A stretch of 32,113 nucleotides of DNA, taken from assembly GCA_949285105.1 (NCBI GenBank), contig CASDXH010000011.1, forward strand, positions 1 to 32,113, written 5' to 3'. Made by a program: the position numbers and the translations under genes. Position 1 is the stretch's first letter. Each line of letters starts with the position of its first letter. Positions 6,447 through 29,303 of the stretch are shown one piece after another. The DNA is from an uncultured Mycoplasma sp. GTDB lineage: Bacteria > Bacillota_I > Bacilli_A > Mycoplasmatales > Mycoplasmoidaceae. The notes under the pieces are model-generated. The model made no database searches. It saw only the letters and a program-made list of their open reading frames with translations, and had not been told where the DNA came from.

Positions 6447-7703
6447 ATGAGTTTTATTAACAAGTCAAAAAAGGAAATAGTTTATACTGATAATGTTTTT
6501 CCGTCTTTTAATTTAGCAAATCAAGCTAGAGAAAAATATGGAGCTAAAAAAGTTATAGATGCAACTGTTGGTACTTTATATGATGAAAATAAAAAGATTG
6601 TTTCATTTAATACTGTTTTCAATTGCTTCAATAAAGATGTAGCAGATGAAGTTAAATCATCATATACCCCACAACTTGATGGTGGTAATGATTTTGCAGA
6701 AATCACTAAAAAGATTTTATTTTTAAATTATGATTTTTTATATGAATCTAAAGTTGTTGGAACTTCTGGGGGAACAGGTGCTTTATTTTTAGGCTTAAAT
6801 ACATTACTTGATAGTGATGATTGTATTATTATGCCAACTCTTAAATGAGAGCCAATTAAATTAATGGCGCAAGAAAATAATTTAAAAGTTTATGAATTTG
6901 AGTTATTTAATAATAAAAATGAATTTGATGTTACTAATTTAATTAATGCTGTAAACTATGCTGTAAACAAGCATAAAAAAATTTGTATTTATTTAAATGA
7001 TCCACTTCACAATCCAACTTCTCATTCAATGACTTATTATGAATGAAAAAAGCTTATAGATTGTTTAAATGAATTGTCTAGAAATAAAAAGATTGTAGTT
7101 ATTAATGATGTTGCCTATATTGAATATGCTAAAGATGTACAACAAGCAAAACAATATATGAACCTATTAAAAAACATTGATAAAAACATTGTTTGACTAT
7201 TCTGTGTGAGTTATTCTAAAACTTTAAGTTTTTATGGAATGAGACTTGGTGCTGTTGTTATTTATAATAAAAATCAGACTCTTGTAGATGATATCTACAA
7301 TAGTTTTAAAACTAGATGTAGAAGTTTATGGGGTAGTGTTAACCATGGTGCAATTGAATCGTTGGTTAAACTATACAATAAAAATTTTGACTCCTACTTA
7401 CAAGAAAAACAAAAATATATAGATCTTTTAGAAAAGAGATTTAAAACATTTAATTACCATGCTAATAGAGTTGGTTTAGAAGTATTTCCAAATGATAACC
7501 AAGGATTTTTTCTAACAATTCCAGGATATATAAAAAATAATAAGTTATTACATCAGAAGCTAATGGATAACAATATTTTCACTGTCTTATATAAACAAGG
7601 AATAAGAATTGCTATCTGTAGTTTAAATATTAATGAATGTGAGAATTTACCAGTAAAAATTAAAGCAATTATTGATGAGGTTAAAAGAGATGAAAACAAA
7701 TAA
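6447..7703 (+). CDS. Class I PLP-dependent aminotransferase (aspartate/aromatic type)
   Basis: A fold-type I aminotransferase of 418 aa. Seen: the cofactor-phosphate loop GTSGGTGALFLG (about 105-116), NDPLHNPTS (matching the family's C-x-HNPTG), NDVAYIEYA (Asp that binds the pyridine nitrogen), the Schiff-base lysine Lys258 in SYSKTLSFYGMRLG, and a C-terminal GIRIAICSLN whose Arg would bind the substrate alpha-carboxylate. These fit the AspC/TyrB subfamily, in which aspartate gives oxaloacetate. ATG 6447 was chosen because GGAGG (6431-6435) precedes it; an in-frame ATG at 6429 would place that site inside the gene. The 3' end overlaps the next gene by 14 bp, so the two are probably translated together. 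The substrate preference is inferred. Confidence 0.88.
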
Positions 7704-9402
7704 GTTTTATAAGTATGAAGATATTATACTAATTAACTATTCAAGATTATTTCCTAAAAATGAAATTGATATTTTAAAAAGCGAAGCTTTTACTACTATT
7801 CTTAATGATTATTATTCTTATTTAAAAAAATACAAACCTGTACTTTTTAATTACCTTGTACAAAATAAAAAGTTATCAAAAAAAACTGTAATTAAAAACT
7901 ATAGTTCTTTTTTGTTAAGTTGTCTTATTAATGATTTCAAACAAGTTAATTCTTGTTATACAAAAAATGAATCTTTATGTTTAGAACTATTTGAAAACCT
8001 TTATAACTTCTATAGGAAAAAACTTAGAATTGGATTTATTTATCAACCATCATATTCTGTAAATGGTGGAATGAACTTTATTGATGTTGATAATAACTTT
8101 AATAAACTAATGCTTTCTTTTTATAGAAATATTGAAGAAAAGATCCAAGGTAAATCAAATGTTATTTACCGTCAATTAAATGCTGGTACAAACGGTTGTG
8201 CTATTATCTCTTTTGTTAAATGAGATAATAGTGAATTTGAATTTTTACAAAAGATTAATTTTATTACTTCTTTAATGTTAAGAACACCATTATTTTTAAA
8301 AACAAATTCAAATAAAAGAATTGGTAATTTTAAAGAAACACAAGTTAATATTTACCAATCTTTTAAAGCTAATGAAAACATTGATAACTGATTATGTTAT
8401 CCAATCAAAATAAACTCTAATTTGGGATTTATTTATTTTCATAGAGATTTTGTTTTTAATGCAATTGGTTTATCTAATTTATTTGAAATAGCTAAAGTTG
8501 AAGAATATGAAAATAAAAAACCAGACCTAATTTTATTTTTTGGAATGAATGATACTAGCTTAAACAATAGTTATTATTATGATGAAGATTCACAAATATA
8601 TTTTGGATGTATTGCTCATCAAAAACATAATGATTATTTTGGTTATATGAAAAAAATGGTTTTAACTTTACATAACCTTTCAAATATTCAAAAGAATGTT
8701 TTACCAGTTCATGGTTCAATGATTACAATTAAACTTAAAAATAAAAAACCTAAAAACATTGTCTTTATGGGAGATTCTGGTACTGGTAAAAGTGAAACAA
8801 TCGAAATGTTAAATATCATTGGCAAAAACAAAATTCAAAAAATGGATGTTATCTTTGATGACATGGGAAGCTTTGAAGAAAGTAAAAATACAATAATTGC
8901 TTCTGGTACAGAAACTGGAGCGTTTTTAAGACTTGATGATCTTGAAAAAGAAACACAATTTAAAAATATTGATAGAAGTATTTTCTATAATGCTGATAAA
9001 AACCTTAATGCAAGAGTTATCATCCCTGTAAACACTTTTGAAAACATTTCAAAAAAATATGAAGTTGATATGTTTTTATATGCTAATAATTATGATGACA
9101 AAACTGGAATTGAAAAGTTTAATTCAATACAAGCAGCTAAACAAGTATTTTGTGAAGGAAAAAGATTTGCAATTGGAACAACAAACGAGATTGGAATAAC
9201 AAAAAGTTTTTTTGCTAATCCGTTTGGTTGTGTTCAAAAACAAAGTGAAACTGAAACTATTATTGATAATGTTTTTGAAAAACTTTTTGACAACAATATT
9301 TATGTTGGGCAAATCTTTACAAAACTTGGAATTAAAAATGACAACAACAAGGGTCTTAAAGAGTCAGCTAAACTATTATTAAAATTAATTGAAAAGCTTT
9401 AA
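7690..9402 (+). CDS. PEP carboxykinase (ATP)-like protein, divergent
   Basis: The 570-aa product has a recognisable PEPCK core in the second half. GYMKKM (318-323) matches the metal-site lysine block EMKKG, and LPVHGSM (338-344) matches the metal-site MHCSAN. The P-loop is GDSGTGKSE (361-369). IFDDMG (388-393) is the kinase-2 aspartate motif. GTETGAFLRLDDL matches EGGCYAK. NARVIIP (Arg442) matches NTRV.YP, and GTTNEIGIT (496-504) matches GTERGVT. Residues 1-270 are weakly related; YRQLNAGTNG may be the oxaloacetate-binding arginine block. PEPCK turns oxaloacetate plus ATP into PEP, CO2 and ADP. Real activity is uncertain because the P-loop has Ser-Glu where PEPCK has Thr-Thr. GAGG at 7677-7680 supports ATG 7690, inside the end of the aminotransferase gene; ATG 7675 is the alternative. 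Confidence 0.75.
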
Positions 9403-14380: not shown

Positions 14381-14398
14381 GTTGAATAAATAAAAATA

Positions 14399-14476
14399 GA
14401 CACCACACACAAAAGTTAAAACTTAGTGCTGCTCCATTTCTGGCCTGACACGATTCGCCACTAATGTTGTGATGTC
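14399..14476 (-). ncRNA. ffs: Signal recognition particle RNA (4.5S-like)
   Basis: Read on the minus strand, positions 14449-14426 carry the SRP domain IV signature: GTCAGG, a CCA-GAAA-TGG hairpin with a GNRA tetraloop, then AGCAGCAC. The ends pair over 9 bp with one G-U (14468-14476 with 14399-14407), which defines a rod of about 78 nt, the size expected in Mollicutes. A promoter lies 7 bp before the inferred 5' end and a terminator lies downstream. The RNA works with Ffh in membrane targeting of nascent proteins. The ends are estimated from the pairing and may be off by a few bases. Confidence 0.93.
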
Positions 14477-14482
14477 TTTATT

Positions 14483-14511
14483 ATTATATATAAAAATGAA
14501 AAATATTTGAA
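14483..14511 (-). promoter_or_regulatory. Promoter of ffs
   Basis: On the minus strand TTCAAA (complement of 14506-14511), a 17-bp spacer and TATAAT (complement of 14483-14488) sit about 7 bp before the inferred 5' end of the SRP RNA. The geometry is ideal for a housekeeping sigma factor. Confidence 0.7.
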
Positions 14512-14563: not shown

Positions 14564-14592
14564 TTGATATATGTATATTAATAAACTATAAT
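14564..14592 (+). promoter_or_regulatory. Promoter of the HIT gene
   Basis: TTGATA (14564-14569), 17 bp, TATAAT (14587-14592), 27 bp before the start codon. It is divergent from the ffs promoter, with about 50 bp between them. Confidence 0.7.
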
Positions 14593-15089: not shown

Positions 15090-18000
15090 ATGAAGATAAA
15101 AAATTTTAATAAATCTAAGTTATTTTCACTATTAGGTGCTGGAATATTAGCTACAAGTTCTACACTTATTTTAGCCTCTTGTAGTTCTGAAAGACAGAAT
15201 CTAATCAACCAATCTATTTTAACTAATGGTTTAGGAAAATTTACTGATGACATTGATTTAAAAACAATGTCAGCTTCATTGCTAAAAAACAATGCAACAG
15301 CTCAAACAAACTTTGCAGATGCAGCTGCTGGTACTTTTGCATATAAATGAGTTCAAAATATAGCAGTAAATGATGTGAGAGTTAAAACTGCATTAAATAC
15401 TAAAATTGATCTTGTTAATAAAACATATGATGATACATTAAATGATTACAAAGACAAGTATGGGAAAAATTTTGACATTTATTTCCAACAAGAATTTTTG
15501 GATAAAAATGGTGGAACTGAAGAATCATATAAACAATTTGAATTACATAAATGAGCTAAACAATATTTAATTGATAATGTTTTTGCAACAGATGTTTATG
15601 TTAAGTTAATGAAAAATAGTATGCCAGTTACTGGTGGTAGTTTAAACACTAGTGAACTTAAAAAGATTTTTAATGAATCTAATGGAATGAATTACAGTTT
15701 TGCTTTCCAAGCAGATACTGATAGTGATTATGCTCAAAAAGAATATGCTTTTTTTCAACAATATATTTATGATCAATGAGTACAATATGCTAATCCATTT
15801 TTAATCAATAACATTCTTTGAAAATATGGGCAACCATCATCTGGTTCTACTTTATCTGATTACTATTTAATGTCTACAGCTCCAGGTGATGATAATGGTT
15901 CTGGAGGAGAAGATGGTTCTGGTGGTGGAGATAATGGATCTTCTGGTGGTACAACTAAACAATCTTCTGCAACAACTTATAACTCTAATATCTCAACTTA
16001 TGAAGAAGGAACTGAAGGTGGAGATGGAGGAACAACTACTCCATCAACTTCAACAGGTAGTTATATCTACCCATACTTTTCAAGTACTATTCCTACAGGT
16101 AACAACACTACTTCAACAGTTAAGAAATATCAAGACTTTGTTACTTTAGCTACAAAAACAAGTAATAGTCAACAAACTCAAAAAACTATTAATAATAATC
16201 TTGAAGACACTAATGGTTTAAAGAAAAATTTATCTCAATATTCAGATGATCATGCTTCTTCTCTTATGTTAGTTAAAAATGGAACTTCTTATAGTGATTT
16301 AAGTAGTATACAATTAGCTGCTGCTTCTTCATTTATGTTATATAAGGATGCAATGATTAATGGCAACAGAGGTGTTACAAAAGCTAGTGAGACTAATCCT
16401 ATAACAAAGAAAAATAATATTAGTAAAGCTATTGCTACAACTTGAGACTCGGTTAATATTGATCCAATAACTGATGAGTTTATTTGAAGTAATGGAACAT
16501 CAACGAGCACTCCAGGTTCTTCTATGGCAACTGCTTCTAATAATGCTGCTTTTACAAATGCTAATGCTAAAGTTGTTTTATCTTCTAAACTAGTTAATGA
16601 AATTATTTCTTCTAAAAACCTATCTTCTTATATAGGAAATTCATTAACATCTGTTGATGGGTTTTTGCCATCAAATTTAAATGATTTTATTTTTATAAGA
16701 GATAATGATGGAGTGAGGGCTGTTTCAATTGAAGGTGGAGCTTATATAAACAAAGGTAAAACACTTCAAGATGTTAAAAAAAGAGCTAGTAATGTTGTCT
16801 TATTCCATTATATGAATAATCTAAATGGAAATGATGATGCTTCTATTGGTTCAGTTTCTATAGATTTAAAAGGTGAACTATCAGGATTTTTGAGCCACAA
16901 CTTTAATTACTTAATTTTTGAATATGCAAAAAGTATGAATACTTTTGGAACAAATAAATTGGCAAACAATGCTGTTGTTGAAAGTATTCCAAAAATTGAA
17001 ACTGTATTTACAGATAATAGTGAAAAAACTTTAATTGAAAACTTGGTTAAATATAATTTTGAATCTTCTATTTCTAATAGAAGACAAGACTATAGACAAA
17101 AAATGTATGAGAGCAAATCTACATATAATGCTAATTATGATATTGATGCTAAAAAGAATGGTTTAGCTGCTACTTGAATTTATGGTCTTAAGTCAAATTC
17201 AGGAATTTATGATTATGAATTAATTGACACTGTACCAACAGCTTATCCATACAATACAAGTAGTGGAAGTAAAAAAACTTTTGAATCAAGTGTTGATAGT
17301 TTTACTAATTCTTTAATGAATCAAACTTCACCATTCAGTGGGTATAAATATAGTCAATACGTTTATTCTAATAATAGTGAAATGAACTTTGTTCTTATGA
17401 ATGCTGATGACTCATCGCTTTCAACGGTTACTAGAAACAGTATTTTCAAAAATAATTGAAAAAGTCTTTATGATCAAACAACATATGGTTATAAAGGATT
17501 TAATGAAGGAACTAAAACTACCACTGATGCAAATACATTAAATGGATATGTTGATAATGCTGTAAATAACTATTTCTTCTCAACGGTGTTTGATAACTTA
17601 ACTGCAGGTAAATGATTAAGATATAATGAACTTTCAAAATCAGATACTTCAAAGAATGGTAAGCAAACTAGTGAACAAACTTTTAGTGCTGATTCACTTA
17701 GAACATATAGAAAGAATTTATGATTAGAAAATATTAAAAACAAAAATGATTTAGGTTCATTTAACTCATTATTAACTCTTTATGCAACAATTAGTTATTT
17801 AGCTCAAGATAACTTTAAAGAATTTATAAATTATCTTCAAACAAAAGTTTCTTTTGGTAAAGATGCTTATATTACTTGAACTAATTCAATTAATGAATCT
17901 ATATACCTTGAAAATAATCAATCAGCTCAAACTAAAGTTGGTAATACAAATGGAAATTTATTAGAGCAAAAAAATCTTTTAAGTTCAATGCATATTTATC

Positions 18001-18944
18001 AAAATGTTGAGAATGGATATTTCTCAGGATATATAGGTAATAGTTTAATAAATGGAAATGGTGGAAGTACATCTCCTGTTTCTCCAAGTGTTAAAATAGG
18101 TGATAAAACTACATCAACAAATAATGAAATTAAAGATAACACTAAAGATTCGTTATTTAATATAGGTTCTAATTATTACAAAATTTCTAATGGAATGTTA
18201 GGTTTTGATGGAATTCAAACTTCTGATTCAAATACTCTTCCTACAACAATTCAACAAATTTTATTTACTAAACCAACAAACTATAACCCAGATAAAAAAG
18301 GTTTATTCTATTCATTCAAAGATAGAAATGGTTTAAAAACTTATATTAATAATATTGTAAGTAAAACGCAGTTAGATGATTTAGTAGATTTAATTGATGC
18401 AAGAACAGGTCAAGATATATCAGAAATTAAAGATGACATTTATGATCTAAATGAAAAGAAACAGGCTTTATTAAACCTGGTAGATAACACTACTAGAACA
18501 TCGATAATAACTGATGAAATGTTCAACCCAAGAGATGGAATACAAACAAAAGAAAAACAAGCTAATGTGTTTCCAACATCTAAAGCTGAAGCAACTACTA
18601 ATACAAACAACTTAATTGAAAATGCAGAAGTAGCAAGTGCAAAAGTAAAATATGCAGCAAATGTTATTCAATTAAATTACAATGATGTTTCTTCGTATGA
18701 AACACTTTCAACAAGAATTATGAATAGTAAAGCAACAGGTGATACTACTAACCAAACTAAAGTTACTCAAAATAATGGAGCAGATGAAGTAATTATGAAT
18801 TTACTTGTATATGCTGCAGTTAATGAAACGTCTCTACAAAATTATGTAGTTTCAAAATTAAGTGAACAAAACAAAGTTAATGTATATGATGTAAAACTTC
18901 ATAATGGATTAGGAGTAGATTGAGTCAAAAATTGAAAAGAATAA
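15090..18944 (+). CDS. Large surface lipoprotein, paralog 1 of 3
   Basis: A 1284-aa predicted lipoprotein, with no function recognised. The N terminus is a lysine-rich head, a hydrophobic stretch and the lipobox LILASC, so Cys31 should be lipidated and the rest exposed outside the cell. Blocks shared with the two downstream genes include FQQEFLDKNGGTEESYK (from 132), a YDQW..Y.NPF.IN..LWKYG block (about 230-253), LAAASS, a D-DGVRAVSIEGG block, KKNGLAATW, SGYKYSQYVYS, INYL...DAYITW, and the C-terminal VNVYDVKLHNGLGVDW. A Gly/Ser/Asp linker follows at 266-289. There are many Asn, Ser and Thr residues and about 20 TGA Trp codons. GAGGTG (15079-15084) is the ribosome binding site. Confidence 0.88.
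15885..15956 (+). repeat. Gly/Ser/Asp low-complexity linker in lipoprotein 1
   Basis: Imperfect repeats of GGTTCTGGNGG-type units encode a run of Gly, Ser, Asp, Asn and Glu (residues 266-289), just after the conserved LWKYG block. A second GGDGG patch and a Thr/Ser-rich stretch follow before the YPYF motif. Confidence 0.7.
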
Positions 18945-18981
18945 TTTTGTTGTTAATATAGAACTAAAGAAAGGCTAATAT

Positions 18982-21900
18982 ATGAAAAAGGTAAGAAACT
19001 TAAAGAAAAGATTATTTTTAATAGGTGGAACTGTTGCCAGTTTAATAATTCCATTAGTTTTAACATCATGTTCTGATAATTTAAATAATGTATTAAATAA
19101 TAGTATCATATCAAACAATGGTACAAACTTTTCAAATAGCCTTTCATTAAAAGACATTACAATTAAGGCTTTACACAACAATCCAACACAAACTGAAATC
19201 ATGGATAAAGCTGCTAGTAAAATGGCGCTTGATTGATTTAAGAGATTATCAACAACAGGTAATGCTACTTTTAGAAATTTATATAATGACCAAGTTAAAA
19301 AAGTTAACGACGATTACAATTCTAAATTAGATCAATATAAAAAAGATTATCCTAAATCTTGAAGCGCAAGATTTCAGCAAGATGTTTTAGATCCAAAAGG
19401 TGGAACTGAATCATCTTATAAAGAATCACAAATGCTTGATTGAGCAAAAACGGAAATTCAGTCTAAACTTTTTGATAAGAGTTATTTAACTCTTATTGAT
19501 AATAAAACCGGAAACGCTGTTCAAGATGTTACTCCACAACAACTATTAGATATTTTATTAAATGATAATAATGGTACTTCTTCAAGAAACAACATGACTG
19601 GTTATAGTTTTGGATTTGCTTCTAAAATTTCACAATCTATAGTTGATACTGTTGCAGATAAAGAATATTCTAAATTTCAAAAATTTGTTTTTGATCAATG
19701 AGCACAATATTCTAATCCATATGTTATCAACATGTCACTATGAAAATATACAACACCAGAAGGTGGTATTAGTACTGTTTATAGCGCTGCTCCACAATCA
19801 AGTTCAGGTGGAGATAATAATGGTTCTAATGATGGAACAAACACTATGCAAGCTTCTACTCGTGAGGGAGAAGATAATGGAAGTGGTGATGGATCAAATG
19901 ATGGTGGTGGCTCTACAACTACTACTTCTGGAACTTATGCTTTCCCTTATTTTAAAAGTCAAAATGATGCAGACAATGAACCAAGTACTACTATTGGAAA
20001 ATTTAATGCTTTTATAAATGCAAGTAAAACAGACACTAACTTTAAAGAAAAAACTACTGGTTCTATGAATGGTGGTACTGGTAATGGAATGAATAATGCA
20101 TCTTCATTAGGACTTAAAAAGATTCCTAAAATATATACAGATGATAGTTCAACTTTTATATTAGCTAAAAACTCATCTATCTTTAATGATTTATATATTG
20201 AGTTTGCAGCTGCAAGTTCATACCTTTACTCAATGGTTGGAGATGGTACAACTAATGTTACATCGATTCAAACTTCTGCAAGTGGTTCTAGTGGATCATC
20301 AACAAATACAATAAGTACTACTATTGGTAAAATGCTTGATTTACCAAGTAATGGTGGCAGCACTGGTAGTAATGGATCTAATAAAGATAACCCACTTGAT
20401 TTAATAACTAGACAATTTGTTTCTAAAACAAGTTTTAATACTGTAACTTCTGGTAGTATGGGTTCAAAAGTTGCAACAACATCCACAAATAAATTTAATG
20501 AATCACATTTATCAAAAGATTTTGTTAATGAATTAATCAATTCTAGTGGAGAACTTTCTTCTTTAAGAAATAATGACTTATATTCAATTGATTCATTTAT
20601 GATTTCTGATAGTCATCTTAATGAATACATGTTATTAAGAAACCAAGCAGGAGTTCATGCTATATCAATTGATGGTTGAGACTATATTAAAAAAGCAACT
20701 GATAAATTAACTGCTAATAAGAGAGCAGCTAATGTTGTTTTATATAGATACTTCCAAAATAAATTGGGAATTGATAGTGACGTTGATATAACTGATATAA
20801 ATAATGAGTTATCAACTTTCTTTAAAGATAACTTTAGTTATTTAGTTTATACATATGCAAATAAAACTTTTAGTGAGATTAATACACAAACAAATTCAAC
20901 TTCTTTAAAAATAACTACTTCATCTAAAGCTTCTTCAAATGCTGATGAGAAGAATAATAATTTTGATACAGATGAAAATAAGCAAAGTTTATTCAATATG
21001 AATAGTGTAACAACAGACCAAAATTTAAAAGATCTATTATCATCATTAAACAGTTATTTATTTGATTTATCAAAATATACTTTTGTAGATGACTATAATA
21101 AGAAAATGGTTGATGCAAAAAGAGCATATTCTAAAAACTATGGTGCTAATGCAAAAACAAATGGTTTAGCTTCACCTTGAGTTTACGCAACAAGTGCAAA
21201 TGACAAATCAAACTACTATTTTGATATTACAAAACAATCTGAATTAGTTGCAAATCCTTTTGATAGACCACAGCAATCAACTTCAAAAGCAGATCAAGAT
21301 AATAATAAAAGTGCTTATCAAAAATTAGAAGAAAGTATAACAAAATATGTTAATGCAGCTAACTTGACGACAGGACTAAATAGTGATTTTGAAGGATTTA
21401 GATATAGTCAATATGTTTACTCTGATAATTGATTAATTAATTACGGATTAATTAAATTTGGTACAGATGGTGATTCTTTATCATTTACTCAAAAAGAAAA
21501 GATCTTAAAAGAATACACTAGTGACATTTACAATTATGATCAATTAACTTTTAAAGTTTATGATTCAACTGGTAATACAAAATTAATGTTAAATGATGCT
21601 AGTGCAGATTTAAACAGTGGATTAAGCAATTACTTCTTTAGTAATACGTTTACAGCTGATTCATTAAATTGATATGAGTGAGACAAATTCACAAATCAAA
21701 ATACAATTTCTTCAAAAGCTACTAGTAATACAACTTTTGATAAAGATAATCTTAGAAAGTATTGAAAATATTTATGGATAGAAAAAACTAGAGTACAAAA
21801 TAGTTCAAGTGGTTTAGAATACAATAATCTTTATACAATTGTAGCAACAGCAAAATATCTTTTAGAAGATAATGGCAGAAACTTTATTAATTATATAAAC

Positions 21901-22968
21901 ACTATTATTCCATACGGTGCAGATGCTTATATAACATGACAAAATTCTCAAAATACATTATTACAACAAACAAACCAAGCAACTGTAAAAGATCTTGTTG
22001 GTGCTAGCAAAATTTCTCAAAACATCAATAATAGTTATTTCTCAGACTATGTTGGAAATTCATCATCAACAACTGCTGGTCAATCTAGGTTAGCAGATGC
22101 TGCTACAACTAATGATGGTATTTTATTAAATAATAAAGGTTCATTATTTAATGATGAATCAAACTATTATAAAGTTGTTGGTGATAGTTTAGGATTCATG
22201 GGAATTCAAACAAGTACTTCAAATAGTTTATCTCCAGTTATCTCTTCTAGATTATTTATTAATCAAAAAGAAAATAATGCTAGTGGTAATGGAATCTTAT
22301 ATGGATATGAAAGTAAAGAAAAACTTTCAGCATATATAAATACACTTGGTTCTACATCACAAGTTGTATCTATAGCAAATAATCTAAAAGCTAAAATACC
22401 TTCACTTAATGTTTCTAAGATAATAAGTGATGAAACAAATTTAAATGAGAAAAAAGATTTATTATCAAAACTTGTTACAACAAATGGTAATATACCAGAA
22501 ACCTACTTCCAAGAAAGAAATGGTTATATTGGAAATGGTGGTAATGGTACAGGAACTGGAACAGGTACAATCAATACAACTATGAATGTAACTCCAATTC
22601 CAGATGTTGCAAATGGAAACAATGCAATAGAGTATGGAGCAAAAGTTATCCAACTTAATTCAAAAGACATAAATGGTATGAATGGTAGCAATGGTATATC
22701 AAACCTTGTGACTACTATAAGTTCAAAAATTCAAAAAATAAATGGAACAATAACTCAAGATCAAACAACTAATAATATGGAAGATCAAGCAAAAGATATT
22801 GTCTATAACTTATTAATAAATGCTGCAACAAACCCTAATGTTCAACAAATGGCAATGAACTCAATTCTTGCTACTAGAAAAGTAAATGTTAATGATATAA
22901 GATTAAATAATCAATTAGGAGCAGATTGAGTAAATAACTGAATTTACAAACCTAATTCAACTAATTAA
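18982..22968 (+). CDS. Large surface lipoprotein, paralog 2 of 3
   Basis: A 1328-aa paralog of its neighbours, with no function recognised. The signal peptide ends in the lipobox LVLTSC (Cys30). The shared blocks appear in the same order: FQQDVLDPKGGTESSYK (from 131), FDQWAQYSNPYVINMSLWKY, YAFPYF, ILAKNSS...IEFAAASS, IDSF...LRNQAGVHAISIDG, TNGLASPW, GFRYSQYVYSDN, AYITWQNS, LGFMGIQTSTSNSL, and the C-terminal VNVNDIRLNNQLGADW. It has two low-complexity linkers, one after the LWKY block and one near residue 1184. It begins 37 bp after paralog 1, with AAAGG upstream, and has no intervening terminator. Surface exposure and an antigenic role are inferred. Confidence 0.88.
19798..19932 (+). repeat. 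Gly/Asn/Asp/Ser linker in lipoprotein 2
   Basis: A degenerate low-complexity stretch encodes residues about 273-317 (two Gly-Asn-Asp-Ser patches, then Thr-rich). It sits at the same place, between LWKY and YPYF-like blocks, as the linker of lipoprotein 1, but differs in length and composition. Confidence 0.65.
22531..22569 (+). repeat. Gly-Thr repeat in lipoprotein 2 C-terminal region
   Basis: Codons from residue 1184 read Gly-Asn-Gly-Gly-Asn-Gly followed by alternating Thr-Gly units. They lie directly after the ERNGYIG block. The codons vary (GGT/GGA, ACA/ACT), so this is not an exact slippage repeat. Confidence 0.65.
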
Positions 22969-22996
22969 AAAATAAATAATATACAGGAGACATAAT

Positions 22997-25900
22997 ATGA
23001 AAAAACAAGTTAACAATAAAAAACTAAGATTAATGAAGGTTTTATCTAGTGCTTTCTTTTTATCTGCTCCTGCTATATTATTAGCATCTTGTGCTTCTGT
23101 TAATAAAGAATTAGTTGAAAACTCAATTTCAAAAAGCGATGGTTCATTGTTTGCTACTGGATACAATATTAAAAAAGTAGCAACTGAAGCTTTAAAATCA
23201 GATGCTGGTCAAAAAGCATATCAAGAATATGTAACTTCAAATCTTGCATTACAGTGATTTAAAGAACTAGCTAAAACAGATCCTCAAACAAAAAGAGATC
23301 TTGATAACGAAATTAAAAATATAGATGATACATATAATAGTAATGTTGATTCTTATAAAAAAAGTAATGGTGCTGACTGAGAATTAAAATTCCAACAAGA
23401 ATTTTTAGATGTTAATGGTGGTACAGAACAAGCTTATAAAGAAAAACAATTATTATCATGAGCTAAAACTAGACTAGCTAGTGAATTATTTACTTCAGAT
23501 TATTCTGCTTTATTAAACTCTAACAATCAAGTTGTTAGAAGCAACGCTGAATCTGATTTACTTAAAGGATTAACAGGAGAATATCATTTTGGATTTAGTT
23601 CAGATACTAAATTAATTGCTCAAAATAAAAATTCAGACCCAGCATATGCTGATTTTCAACAATTCATTTATGACAAGTGAATTGAAGTTGAAAACCCATT
23701 TGTTGTAAATATGTCATTATGAAAATATGGTTCACCAGGTACTGATGGACTAAAATCTTTATATAACTTAGATGCTGGTTCTACACTTACTACTGGTACA
23801 TATGAATACCCTTACTTTAATAACTCTGGAGAAACTTCTACAAATTATGGAACTATAAGTAAATTCACAAATTTTGTTAATGCAGCTAAAACTAGTGGAA
23901 TGTCAACTAATAGTTCAAGTGGTAATTTCTTATCAAAGGATGCAACTAAAAATAAACTAGGAATTAGAGAAATTGGTAAGAACTTTACAGATGATTCAGC
24001 TACTTTAATTCTTGCTAAAAATGGATCTATATATAATGATTTATATATTGAATTTGCTGCTGCAAGTTCTTATCTGTTTGGTGAACTAGCAAATAGTACA
24101 ACTGCTTCTAGTCAAAACACAACAACAAATAAAATGGATAAAGATATTGTTGTTAAAAGAGAAAATGGATTAGATTCAATTACAAGTAATTTTGTTTATA
24201 AAGTAAATAACACTTCATCTATGGGAAAAGATAGAACATCTACTACTAAGATGACTAACCCAACAAATATTAATGGAATCATAAAATATTCAAATAACTT
24301 AGTATCTGAAATAGTTAATAAGAATGGTACTTTGAAAAATCTTGTAATGAATAATGGTACAGTTTATTCAATTGATTCATTTAGAGGAACAAGTACTGAC
24401 AAATTAAATGATTTCATGTTCATTAGAGATCAAGCTGGTGTTCACGCTGTTGGTATTGAAGCATCAAAATATATTAAAGATGGATATGCTAATGGACAAC
24501 CTGCTGGAAAAGCTGATAATACAGCTAATAATACAAAAACATATAAACAACGTGCTGGTGATGTAGTATTTTATTATTCAAAATTAAAAAACTCAGATGA
24601 AGATTTAACTTATGGTATGTCAATTGATCTTAAATCTGAATTAAGTACTTTCTATTCTAATAATACAGATTGATTAATTTATGAATATGCTAAGCACTTA
24701 ATGGGTAATGATCAAAGTGGTGTAGGAAGTATACAGAATTTACCTTCAGTTAAAATGTTTGATTTAAATGATCAAGAGATGAAAAACCTATTAGGTAATA
24801 ATTATGTTACACTTGCTGATAAATTAATAGAATATCAGTTCTTAATTGGTAAAGTTGATAGAGTAAAAGATTACCAAGCCAAAATGTATGATGCTAAATC
24901 TAAGTTCTCTATAAACAATGGTTCTAATACAAGAAAAAATGGATTTGCTTCTGGTTGAGTATATGAAAAAGTAAAAAGTGATTCATCTACTTTAAATAGC
25001 AATTTAGCAACAACTCCACAACAAAATAAAAATCTTGTAAAAAACCCTAATTTCTTTGATGTAACTTATGCTTCTTATGTCGATGGGACTTATGGACTAT
25101 TTGATAATAATGGTGCTAAAAAAACATTGATGACAGCAGTTGATAGCTATATGAGTAGTTTAAATGTAACAAGTCAATCAAGTTCATTTTCTGGATATAA
25201 GTATAGTCAATATATTTATAGTGATAATAATGCATTAAACTCTGTTTTATTGGCTTTTGGTTCAGATAGTAACTCACTATCAAACACAATTAAAAATGAT
25301 ATATTAAAAAATTATATTGGTGAAAATGATTTTGATTTTGACAAACTTGAATTTAAATCAACTAGTAAGTTAATAACTGATTTAGAAAATGGTACTAATA
25401 ATGATGTTATGAAAACTGGTAATAACGGAGTTAAAGGAATAAATAGCGCTTTAAGTAATATGTATTACAATACTTCATTTGATGGATTAACTGATAAATG
25501 AGGTCAATACATTTCTTCAACAAATAATGGACAAACTCCAGCTACTAATACAGAACAAACTGCTTTCCCAATCAATCAAGCACAATTAGATACTTATAGA
25601 AATCAATTATTTAAAAATTCTTTAAGTGTTGATAATGCTACTACAAGTAGTAGTTACCTATCTTTATATACGATGTTAGCAACTGCTAAATATTTATTAC
25701 AAGATAATGCTAAAGAATTTATTAACTACTTAATGACTAAAGTAACTGTTGGAGAGAATGCATATATCACATGATATGGATCACAAAATAAAAACCTACA
25801 AATTAATGGTTTAAACAAAACAACTGTTAAAGATTTATTATCTGCTACATCTAACCTAATGATGAATGTTAGTAACTCTAAAGAATCAGCTTACTATGGG

Positions 25901-26803
25901 TTGACTTATTCTACAAGTGCAACTGCATCTAAACCTAGTAAAACTTCTAATAGTGAAGGAACAGGAAGTAATGGAGATACAATTTCATTAGATAAAAACA
26001 ACTCTAATTCATTATTTGGAGTATCATCTACTTACTATACAGTCGTTCAAGGAATGACTGGGTTTATGGGATTAATCAATCAAAACGATAGTTCATCATT
26101 AGATGATTCTATTAGTGAAAGGTTATTCACTAATCCTACATTAGATAATGCAAACAGTGTTGGTTTATTACATAGCTTTGGTGATTCTAAAGAAGATTTA
26201 TTAAATACTATAGATTCATATACTTTATCAAGTGAGGTTAACAATCTTGCTAACCAACTAAAGAAATATCTACCTATGATTCAATTTGAAAGTGTCATTA
26301 ATATTTCTGATAATAGTTTAATGTCTAAAAAAGATGCTCTTAAAAACTTGATAAACAATAATTACCAAGAAGAAAATGCTATGCCCGGTTCAAAAGAAAC
26401 AAAACCAATTACTAAAGCAATGTTTGAACAAAGAAAAGGTTATGTTGGTAAAACTCCAACTACAAGTGGTGGTGGAGGAGCTGGAGGTTTTAAAACACAA
26501 TTAGCTGATACACAGCAAAATACAAATGATAATTTTCAAGTTACTGATTCACCAGTTTCATCAACTCAATCTGGTGCATATGTTTATCAAATAAATACTA
26601 ATGACTTAAAAGATTGATCTAGTTTGAAAATGGCTGTAGGTAACAATACTGAAGTGTTGTACAACTTATTAATTGTTGCAGCAAAAGATACAGGACAACA
26701 AGATAGAGCATTAAGCTCAATCTTGACTACAAATAAAGTTCAAGTGTTTGATACAAGATTAAATACACAACTTGGTCCTAAATGAGCAAGTAACTGAAAA
26801 TAG
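22997..26803 (+). CDS. Large surface lipoprotein, paralog 3 of 3
   Basis: A 1268-aa paralog, with no function recognised. The signal peptide ends in the lipobox ILLASC (Cys32). Shared blocks: FQQEFLDVNGGTEQAYK (from 132), a YDKW..V.NPF..NMSLWKYG block, YEYPYF, ILAKNGS...IEFAAASS, IDSFR...IRDQAGVHAVGIEAS, KNGFASGW, SGYKYSQYIYSDN, LLQDNAKEFINYL, AYITW, RKGYVGK, and the C-terminal VQVFDTRLNTQLGPKW. It lacks the Gly-rich linker after LWKYG but has a poly-Gly patch near residue 1157. AGGAGA (22984-22989) is its ribosome binding site. It starts 28 bp after paralog 2, and a terminator follows its stop. Confidence 0.88.
26465..26488 (+). repeat. Poly-Gly patch in lipoprotein 3 C-terminal region
   Basis: Mixed GGT/GGA codons with one GCT encode Ser-Gly4-Ala-Gly2 (residues 1157-1164), shortly after the RKGYVGK block. 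This is the same place as the Gly-Thr repeat of lipoprotein 2. Confidence 0.6.
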
Positions 26804-26804
26804 T

Positions 26805-26839
26805 AGATTAACAAAGTTAATTTATTATTTTTTTTATTT
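26805..26839 (+). terminator. Terminator of the lipoprotein array
   Basis: An 8-bp stem with one G-U pair (26805-26812 with 26816-26823) and an AAA loop is followed by ATTATTTTTTTTATTTA. The stem is short and AT-rich, but the T-tract is long. Confidence 0.6.
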
Positions 26840-27665: not shown

Positions 27666-29303
27666 ATGCAGACACTTGGATTAGTAATAATACCTTTGTT
27701 ATTTATTTTTAATTCTATAGGGATTGGTAAATTGATATCAAAACATAAAATATCAATTAATAATCCAACAATGTTCTGTGCTGGTTTTTTTGTTTTTATT
27801 TCAATAATTAGTTTAGTTTCAATTCCTTTTTTAATTGTTGGCGAAATTATATACGCTTATCCTTATATAATTCTTACTGTTCAAGTTTTATTACTATTAC
27901 TCTATATCTATAATTGGAAGTTATTTGTATTTTCTATATTTGTTAATTGAAATAAGGTTCTAAGTTTTCTTTTGGTATTGGTTTTATCGCTTGGATATTA
28001 TTTAATCTTTGTGGTGTTTAACTTAAGTCCTTTATCAAGTTATTTTTCTAATGATTATTCTTATTTGTTAAGTGGCAATGCTAATGTTTTTTCTATTTTT
28101 AGAAATATGTTTTTAGATTATATTTTTAAATTATTTAATTTAACAACAGTTGATAACATCGAAGGTTTTTATAAATACTCTTTTGGTGTTGTAATTGTTT
28201 TATTAAATACTTGTGCTATTTTATCAATAGTTAAAATTAGAAATTACTTTTATCCTTTTAGATTCATAGGAACTTTATTTTTAAGTTTTGTAGTAAGTTT
28301 TTTTGTTTTTAATAATTTAGACTCAATTAAAAGTTTTGTATCAATATTATTAATTGTTTTAATATTAGCAATAGATTTACTAGTTTCAAACAGTACTAAT
28401 AAAAGTTTTGAACGTAAATATTTATTACTGAATACTGGAATTTTTACCATTGTGTTTTTAAATACAAATTTTGCTTTTTATGCTGGAATTATTTTTGTTT
28501 TCTTTTTCTTAACTTCTTATTGTAAAAATATTTCGTTTGCAGCAGATAACATCATTAGAATATTTTTATATCTTATTTTTATAAGTGGAATATTTTTTAT
28601 AAATATTGAACTTATAGTTACCTTAATTTTATTTGGGGTGTTTATAGTACTGTTTTCCTTCTATTTTGTATTTAGAAAAAATAGCGAAAAATATTATGAA
28701 CTTATTTGAAAGTTTGAGGTATTTTTTAAAGATAAGATAAGATACTTTTTATTTTTTATTCTTTTTGTTTTTGTTTTAGTTTATGTAATCTTAATATTGC
28801 AATCTAAAGTTGTTATAAATATTTCAAATGTTGCTATTGTTACAGTTGATAAAGATAAACCTTTAGCTAAAAGTATAAATATTTCTTTCTGAATATTTTA
28901 TACATTGGTTTTAGTTTATGGGATCTTGTATTCATTTATTAAAATTAAAAAGATAGATAGAAGCCAATCTTCTTTATTGATCGTTTCATATATTGCTTTG
29001 TTTTTTTATAATCCTTTATTTATAAATCTATTAGAACAAATAATGTCATTATCAAATTATCTTGTATTTGACTTTAAAGTTTATTACCTAATTTTAATCT
29101 TAATTGTATACTTAAGTTTTTATAAAAACGTAGTTAAAATAGATTACAATAATTCAAGATATTTGGTTAAAAACGACTTTAAATATTTAGACATTAAAAA
29201 GAAATTGAAATTATGCTTTATGTCAAATTACGCTATTCTTACTTATTTTAGCTTAATGACATTTGTAATTTTTGCAATTTCAGTTGCTTCTATATCAATT
29301 TAA
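27666..29303 (+). CDS. Polytopic membrane protein of unknown function
   Basis: A 545-aa, highly hydrophobic protein that I do not recognise. By eye it has about 14-16 membrane-spanning segments spread over its whole length. A soluble loop of about 50 residues follows the fourth segment (around 120-170), another lies near residues 345-357, and a charged cytosolic-type stretch near 490-520 precedes the last helix. No transporter, glycosyltransferase or protease motif was seen. AAAGGA lies just before ATG 27666. Three internal TGA codons encode Trp. The gap to ligA is only 13 bp, so the two are probably one transcript. It might be a transporter or a lipid- or glycan-handling enzyme, but nothing in the sequence decides this. 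Confidence 0.8.

Follow-up and report, generated by a model that had tools for sequence, protein, structure and literature searches.

The closest described relatives of the proteins studied here form lipoprotein family 3 of Mycoplasma pneumoniae, which comprises MPN436, MPN444 and MPN489 (PMC2515320). Structures of Mpn444 have been deposited in the PDB (9qgq, 9gn0 and 9gnh), and its description as a PPIase, as a homotrimer and as essential comes from the entry titles alone ('Homotrimer of the extracellular PPIase Mpn444' for 9qgq and 'essential ... lipoprotein Mpn444' for 9gn0); our literature search found no paper on these structures covering PPIase activity or trimerisation. The corresponding Pfam family, DUF3713 (PF12506), also includes MG307, MG309 and MG338 of M. 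genitalium, and MG309 was taken as the Mpn444 counterpart because the PDB name reads 'MG309 homolog'. A second point of comparison is the HinT operon of other Mollicutes. In M. hominis, HinT binds the surface protein P80 (PMC1173108, PMC539234), the only P80 for which this binding has been shown (PMC539234).

The window, meaning the whole stretch of DNA analyzed (32,113 nucleotides), belongs to a mycoplasma genome of 1.06 Mb in 67 contigs that uses genetic code 4. Its features are collected in Table 1. The initial annotation had described three consecutive giant lipoprotein genes, each with a lipobox, separated by 28–37 bp and sharing motifs in the same order. The open reading frames and lipobox cysteines agree with this description (ILASC, VLTSC and LLASC in copies 1, 2 and 3, respectively), the motifs keep one order in all three proteins, and the gaps measure 37 bp between copies 1 and 2 and 28 bp between copies 2 and 3. 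Full-length BLASTP connects the copies pairwise far beyond chance (E 2e-150, 2e-133 and 3e-169; 31–34% identity). In-frame TGA is read as Trp at 13, 14 and 12 codons of copies 1, 2 and 3. A single terminator had also been placed at the end of the array; an A/T-rich hairpin (TTAAC-AAA-GTTAA) followed by a T tract is indeed present past copy 3, while a G+C-based scan found no G+C-rich terminator after position 26803. The promoter-like site 5' of the HinT gene could serve HinT and all three lipoprotein genes as their one promoter.

Table 1. Features of the lipoprotein array and its upstream gene (positions in the window).
Feature	Position	Strand	Evidence and remarks
Best promoter-like site in the region, TTGATA-17-TATAAT, 5' of the HinT gene	14564..14592	+	Consensus scan, 11/12 matches
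HIT-family protein, HinT-like, 147 aa	14620..15063	+	Pfam HIT E 3e-23; 26 bp upstream of copy 1
DUF3713 lipoprotein copy 1	15090..18944	+	1284 aa; PF12506 E 4e-193, residues 37-1251; lipobox Cys31
Parvulin-like hairpin of copy 1, LNDFIFIRDNDGVRAVSIEGGAYI, with Arg in place of His (GVR, degenerate)	16677..16748	+	Family alignment
DUF3713 lipoprotein copy 2	18982..22968	+	1328 aa; PF12506 E 5e-210, residues 36-1291; lipobox Cys30
Copy 2 parvulin-like hairpin LNEYMLLRNQAGVHAISIDGWDYI, His kept (GVH)	20617..20688	+	Family alignment
DUF3713 lipoprotein copy 3	22997..26803	+	1268 aa; PF12506 E 3e-219, residues 38-1238; lipobox Cys32; AlphaFold2-modelled copy
Mostly helical N-terminal domain of copy 3 (residues 33-243), predicted to be a chaperone domain of the PrsA/SurA kind	23093..23725	+	pLDDT, VIA-align
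Copy 3 parvulin-like hairpin LNDFMFIRDQAGVHAVGIEASKYI, His kept (GVH)	24404..24475	+	Two-strand hairpin in model, pLDDT low to middling
Weak A/T-rich hairpin and T tract, possible terminator	26808..26836	+	Seen in sequence

The array is flanked by the HIT-family gene on one side and deoC on the other, and its surroundings consist of housekeeping genes. Additionally, a small bacterial SRP RNA (Rfam RF00169, 51 bits) was observed on the opposite strand at 14386-14483, between recR and the HinT gene. A 576 aa protein at 7672-9402 (+) matches phosphoenolpyruvate carboxykinase weakly and in its middle part only, and a 545 aa protein at 27666-29303 (+), between deoC and ligA, gave no Pfam or NCBIfam match.

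The three proteins had been taken for an unrecognised family, a view that did not hold. The HMM search suggested in the initial annotation matched a described Pfam family with solved members, DUF3713, for which Pfam itself gives no function. PF12506 covers all three proteins end to end (645, 701 and 731 bits against a curated cut-off of 27.2 bits; model positions 2 to 1143/1144). A profile of the three window proteins detected Mpn444 in the PDB (9qgq, E 8.8e-19, with 9gn0 also found), and a 34-member profile of the N-terminal domain (N-domain) raised these matches to E 4.5e-50 for 9qgq and 6.6e-50 for 9gn0. Such profiles were needed, as single-sequence phmmer searches of the PDB with window proteins P0002 and P0003 returned nothing. 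The window proteins are thus new members of a known Pfam family that has a solved relative annotated as essential and as a PPIase.

Structure prediction was carried out on copy 3. An AlphaFold2 model of residues 64-1263, built from six sequences, reached a mean pLDDT of 41 and was usable at the N-domain only; a second model, of residues 33-580, reached a mean of 57 with good confidence for the N-domain only, where block means were mostly 70-97 from residue 63 and 83-97 over most of the domain. In VIA-align comparisons of both models the top match was Mpn444 (9gn0; Z 10.2 and 9.2, the latter spanning 365 residues), and Foldseek found Mpn444 with E 9.1e-7 from a copy 3 model of middling confidence. 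Below it in the VIA-align ranking stood, almost without exception, PrsA foldases of several species, with Z between 5.8 and 3.9; SurA ranked much lower. The N-domain of copy 3 aligned with PrsA structures at Z 4.3-5.8, and Z-scores of 4-6 can come from common helical arrangements. The model runs from the helical N-domain through a strand, an insertion and a two-strand hairpin to returning helices, which we take to be the order of PrsA. In Pfam searches, the whole window proteins gave no PrsA, SurA_N or Rotamase match at E <= 1, none of these appeared among the families listed for the N-domains at E <= 10, and a profile alignment of DUF3713 with four PrsA-type sequences was not significant. Since sequence profiles miss PrsA, the window proteins are said here to work like PrsA and are not filed as PrsA members. 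An example of an enlarged PrsA was seen in a relative of the same class (G331), whose PrsA-type protein carries two tandem N-domains.

Of 20 single-copy genomes, 15 retain the G-[VI]-H motif of the hairpin and five lack its His; the usual first parvulin His was not evident. In genomes with three or six recovered copies, at least one copy has the His in 18 of 18, and at least one copy has lost it in 17 of 18. The genome that we take to be M. genitalium (G079) has the His in MG309 only, of its three copies. This identification is supported by published repeat coordinates of MG307, MG309 and MG338 (PMC2515158), which fall within the three DUF3713 genes of that genome. The lack of an evident first His and the loss of the hairpin His in some copies and in five single-copy genomes, together with a size about four times that of PrsA, would suit a structural or transport scaffold of PrsA-like descent whose trimer now has another surface task, for example as an export exit or envelope support, and lacks isomerase activity. 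We regard such a scaffold as very improbable, as the depositors call Mpn444 a PPIase and distant genera have otherwise conserved the motif of the hairpin.

DUF3713 was detected in 90 of 95 genomes of this mycoplasma family, including all 46 of good quality. About 202 good genomes from the rest of the order contained none. Such a distribution is what a core housekeeping protein should show. In the 46 good DUF3713 genomes neither canonical parvulin model (PF00639, PF13616) scored above its cut-off, so the role of PrsA looks vacant in them; the same models matched in 8 of 14 control genomes. A single copy of DUF3713 is the rule in most genera, two copies are common in genus g10, and three tandem copies occur in nearly every genome of g1, the genus of the window. 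In the phylogenetic tree, the g1 copies and the single-copy g2 proteins group together with support, and the g3/g4/g9 lineage falls outside this clade with three orthologous groups of its own; at least two separate triplications therefore took place. A genome that we take to be M. penetrans (G024) contains six copies, and in the tree these fall out as the same triplet present twice. There the triplet was duplicated as a block (contig C1, 894500-920000), with an in-frame TAA in one copy in the first search. In g3 and g4, the proteins are without the lipobox Cys and have a hydrophobic N-terminus, which makes a transmembrane helix their probable anchor.

These distributions bear on whether the array encodes surface antigens, as the initial annotation proposed, or adhesins: duplicated lipoproteins that diversify while exposed to host immunity. 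The proteins are surface lipoproteins, copy 1 contains a Gly/Ser-rich 21-nt repeat (15891-15949), and strain typing of M. genitalium makes use of variable in-frame triplet repeats in its homologues (PMC2515158). However, the family is universal in the lineage, present in every good genome and with one copy in most genera; the orthologue dN/dS is about 0.20-0.24 by a Nei-Gojobori estimate, and Mpn444 is titled 'essential'. Furthermore, no sign of phase variation was found in the window genes: they contain no homopolymer or short-repeat switch, and the longest shared tracts are 73-76% identical. We therefore do not favour the antigen proposal and consider it quite improbable. The low dN/dS does support another part of the original proposal, a common fold under selection in the three copies. 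A co-expressed surface complex is plausible as well, given the tandem genes, the block duplication in G024 and the trimeric relative. Because the relative is trimeric and the His is lost in some copies and kept in at least one, the pattern suggests that the three window paralogues assemble as a heterotrimer with a division of labour. Two-copy genomes would fit such a heterotrimer as a 2:1 assembly only.

The HinT-like protein matches the NCBIfam model M_plasma_HinT with E 8e-23, below its curated cut-off. HinT adjoins DUF3713 in eight genomes of four genera (G000, the window genome, with G022 and G023 in g1; G011-G013 in g4; G020 in g6; G073 in g9); no such neighbourhood turned up in g2, g3, g7, g8, g10, g11 or M. 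penetrans. Elsewhere in the Mollicutes the HinT gene comes after genes for two large surface proteins, as seen in 12 loci of family f7 and in 23 of 25 loci of family f8; in f7 these two are named P80 and P60. No window protein matches the P80 (NF045833) or P60 (NF045835) model, and neither model scores above cut-off in any of the 95 family genomes; the P60 model found no match in the controls either, yet it matches its own f7 proteins. Profile comparisons used mature sequences, as signal peptides inflate the score, and the E-values are those of single pairwise comparisons. The N-domain of DUF3713 aligned with the P80-position lipoproteins of f8 over 113 columns (hhalign 92.6%, E 4.5e-7) and the hairpin did so separately at 82% (E 1.1e-5; IIAFIDTDGLHFMKIDGY against FMLLRNSAGVHAITIDGY), in the same order in both families, with reversed and 40 column-shuffled control profiles at 0.3% or less. 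Judged by these profiles, the first HinT-operon lipoprotein of Spiroplasma/Mycoides-type genomes is a remote homologue of DUF3713 in two regions, a link for which we found no paper in the literature. We also considered DUF3713 as a fusion of P80 and P60, whose combined length (730 + 580 aa) approximates its own, and rejected it on the comparison of the C-terminal half with P60 (0.7% or less). In the PDB, the P80-position profile also hit 'Virulence protein vsdE' (E 0.003), which was taken as spurious.

The position of the HinT gene, its place after two surface proteins in f7 and f8, the P80 binding in M. hominis and the absence of P80/P60 matches in the family could together indicate a HinT-linked surface complex of the P60/P80 type, in which DUF3713 mainly forms the outer part of a membrane complex that either passes signals to cytoplasmic HinT or comes under its control, with folding secondary or lost. 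This seems unlikely to us, as HinT does not adjoin DUF3713 in g2, g3, g7, g8, g10, g11 or M. penetrans, and homology to the NF045833 P80 of f7 is weak (4.7%), only the P80-position proteins of f8 giving a match. Such a complex is nevertheless compatible with a foldase.

Taken together, we consider it likely that these three paralogues are foldases of the DUF3713/Mpn444 family, anchored by lipid and acting outside the cytoplasm as the PrsA counterpart in this mycoplasma branch. Observed here are family membership, the structural match to Mpn444, the distribution, the HinT linkage and the His pattern; the foldase action, the role of the C-terminal half and the assembly of the three paralogues with one another are inferred. 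The lipid would hold each protein on the outer face of the single membrane, and the helical PrsA/SurA-like N-domain would grip unfolded segments of proteins emerging from the Sec channel. The parvulin-like domain, predicted to sit between the N-domain and its returning helices, would isomerise prolyl bonds where the His is kept, in copies 2 and 3 and not in copy 1, and the long C-terminal half would complete the trimeric assembly. The triplication and the HinT linkage suggest one multi-part folding machine rather than three antigens. A broader and more tentative proposal is that a HinT-linked extracellular foldase of the parvulin type may be an ancient Mollicute system, represented by the P80-position lipoprotein of the HinT operon in Spiroplasma/Mycoides-type genomes and by DUF3713/Mpn444 here. 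As part of this proposal, triplication may have turned an ancestral homotrimer into a heterotrimer on at least two occasions, so that one or two subunits stay catalytic, at least one is degenerate, and gene number equals subunit number.

DUF3713 occurs in every good genome of a lineage that contains human and animal pathogens, as a family without a Pfam function. If the foldase reading is true, DUF3713 would be the PrsA of this lineage and would account for the folding of exported proteins where a canonical parvulin is lacking, and it would be joined to the HinT operon of Mollicutes. A trimeric protein whose gene has been triplicated more than once, with the active-site His lost selectively, would offer a clean natural test of the transition from homomer to heteromer. 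The Pfam family and its solved relative belong to the known part; less ordinary are the connection with HinT, the N-domain and hairpin common to the HinT-operon lipoprotein, and the parallel triplication with selective His loss.

In comparison with known systems, the window proteins share with Mpn444, the other members of lipoprotein family 3 and MG307, MG309 and MG338 a Pfam family over the whole length, a lipoprotein signal and three paralogues per genome, and copy 3 matches the Mpn444 structure over module 1. They differ from these M. pneumoniae and M. genitalium relatives in forming one tandem array adjoining HinT, in a triplication that is separate on the tree, and in keeping the His in two copies, whereas G079 keeps it in one of three. 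With the P80/P60 complex of the HinT operon they share the HinT linkage, and the family shares the N-domain and hairpin with the f8 P80-position lipoprotein. P80 and P60 are, however, two proteins (about 730 and 580 aa) and DUF3713 is one (about 1050-1500 aa), with no detectable relation between P60 and its C-terminal half. The window proteins depart from PrsA and SurA in having no sequence-profile match, a length about four times greater, large insertions, a long extra C-terminal half and a trimeric relative. Like PrsA they are exported lipoproteins, and with PrsA/SurA they may share a similar N-domain fold, helices that return after an inserted domain and, where the His is kept, a G-[VI]-H-[AI] hairpin resembling the last parvulin strand.
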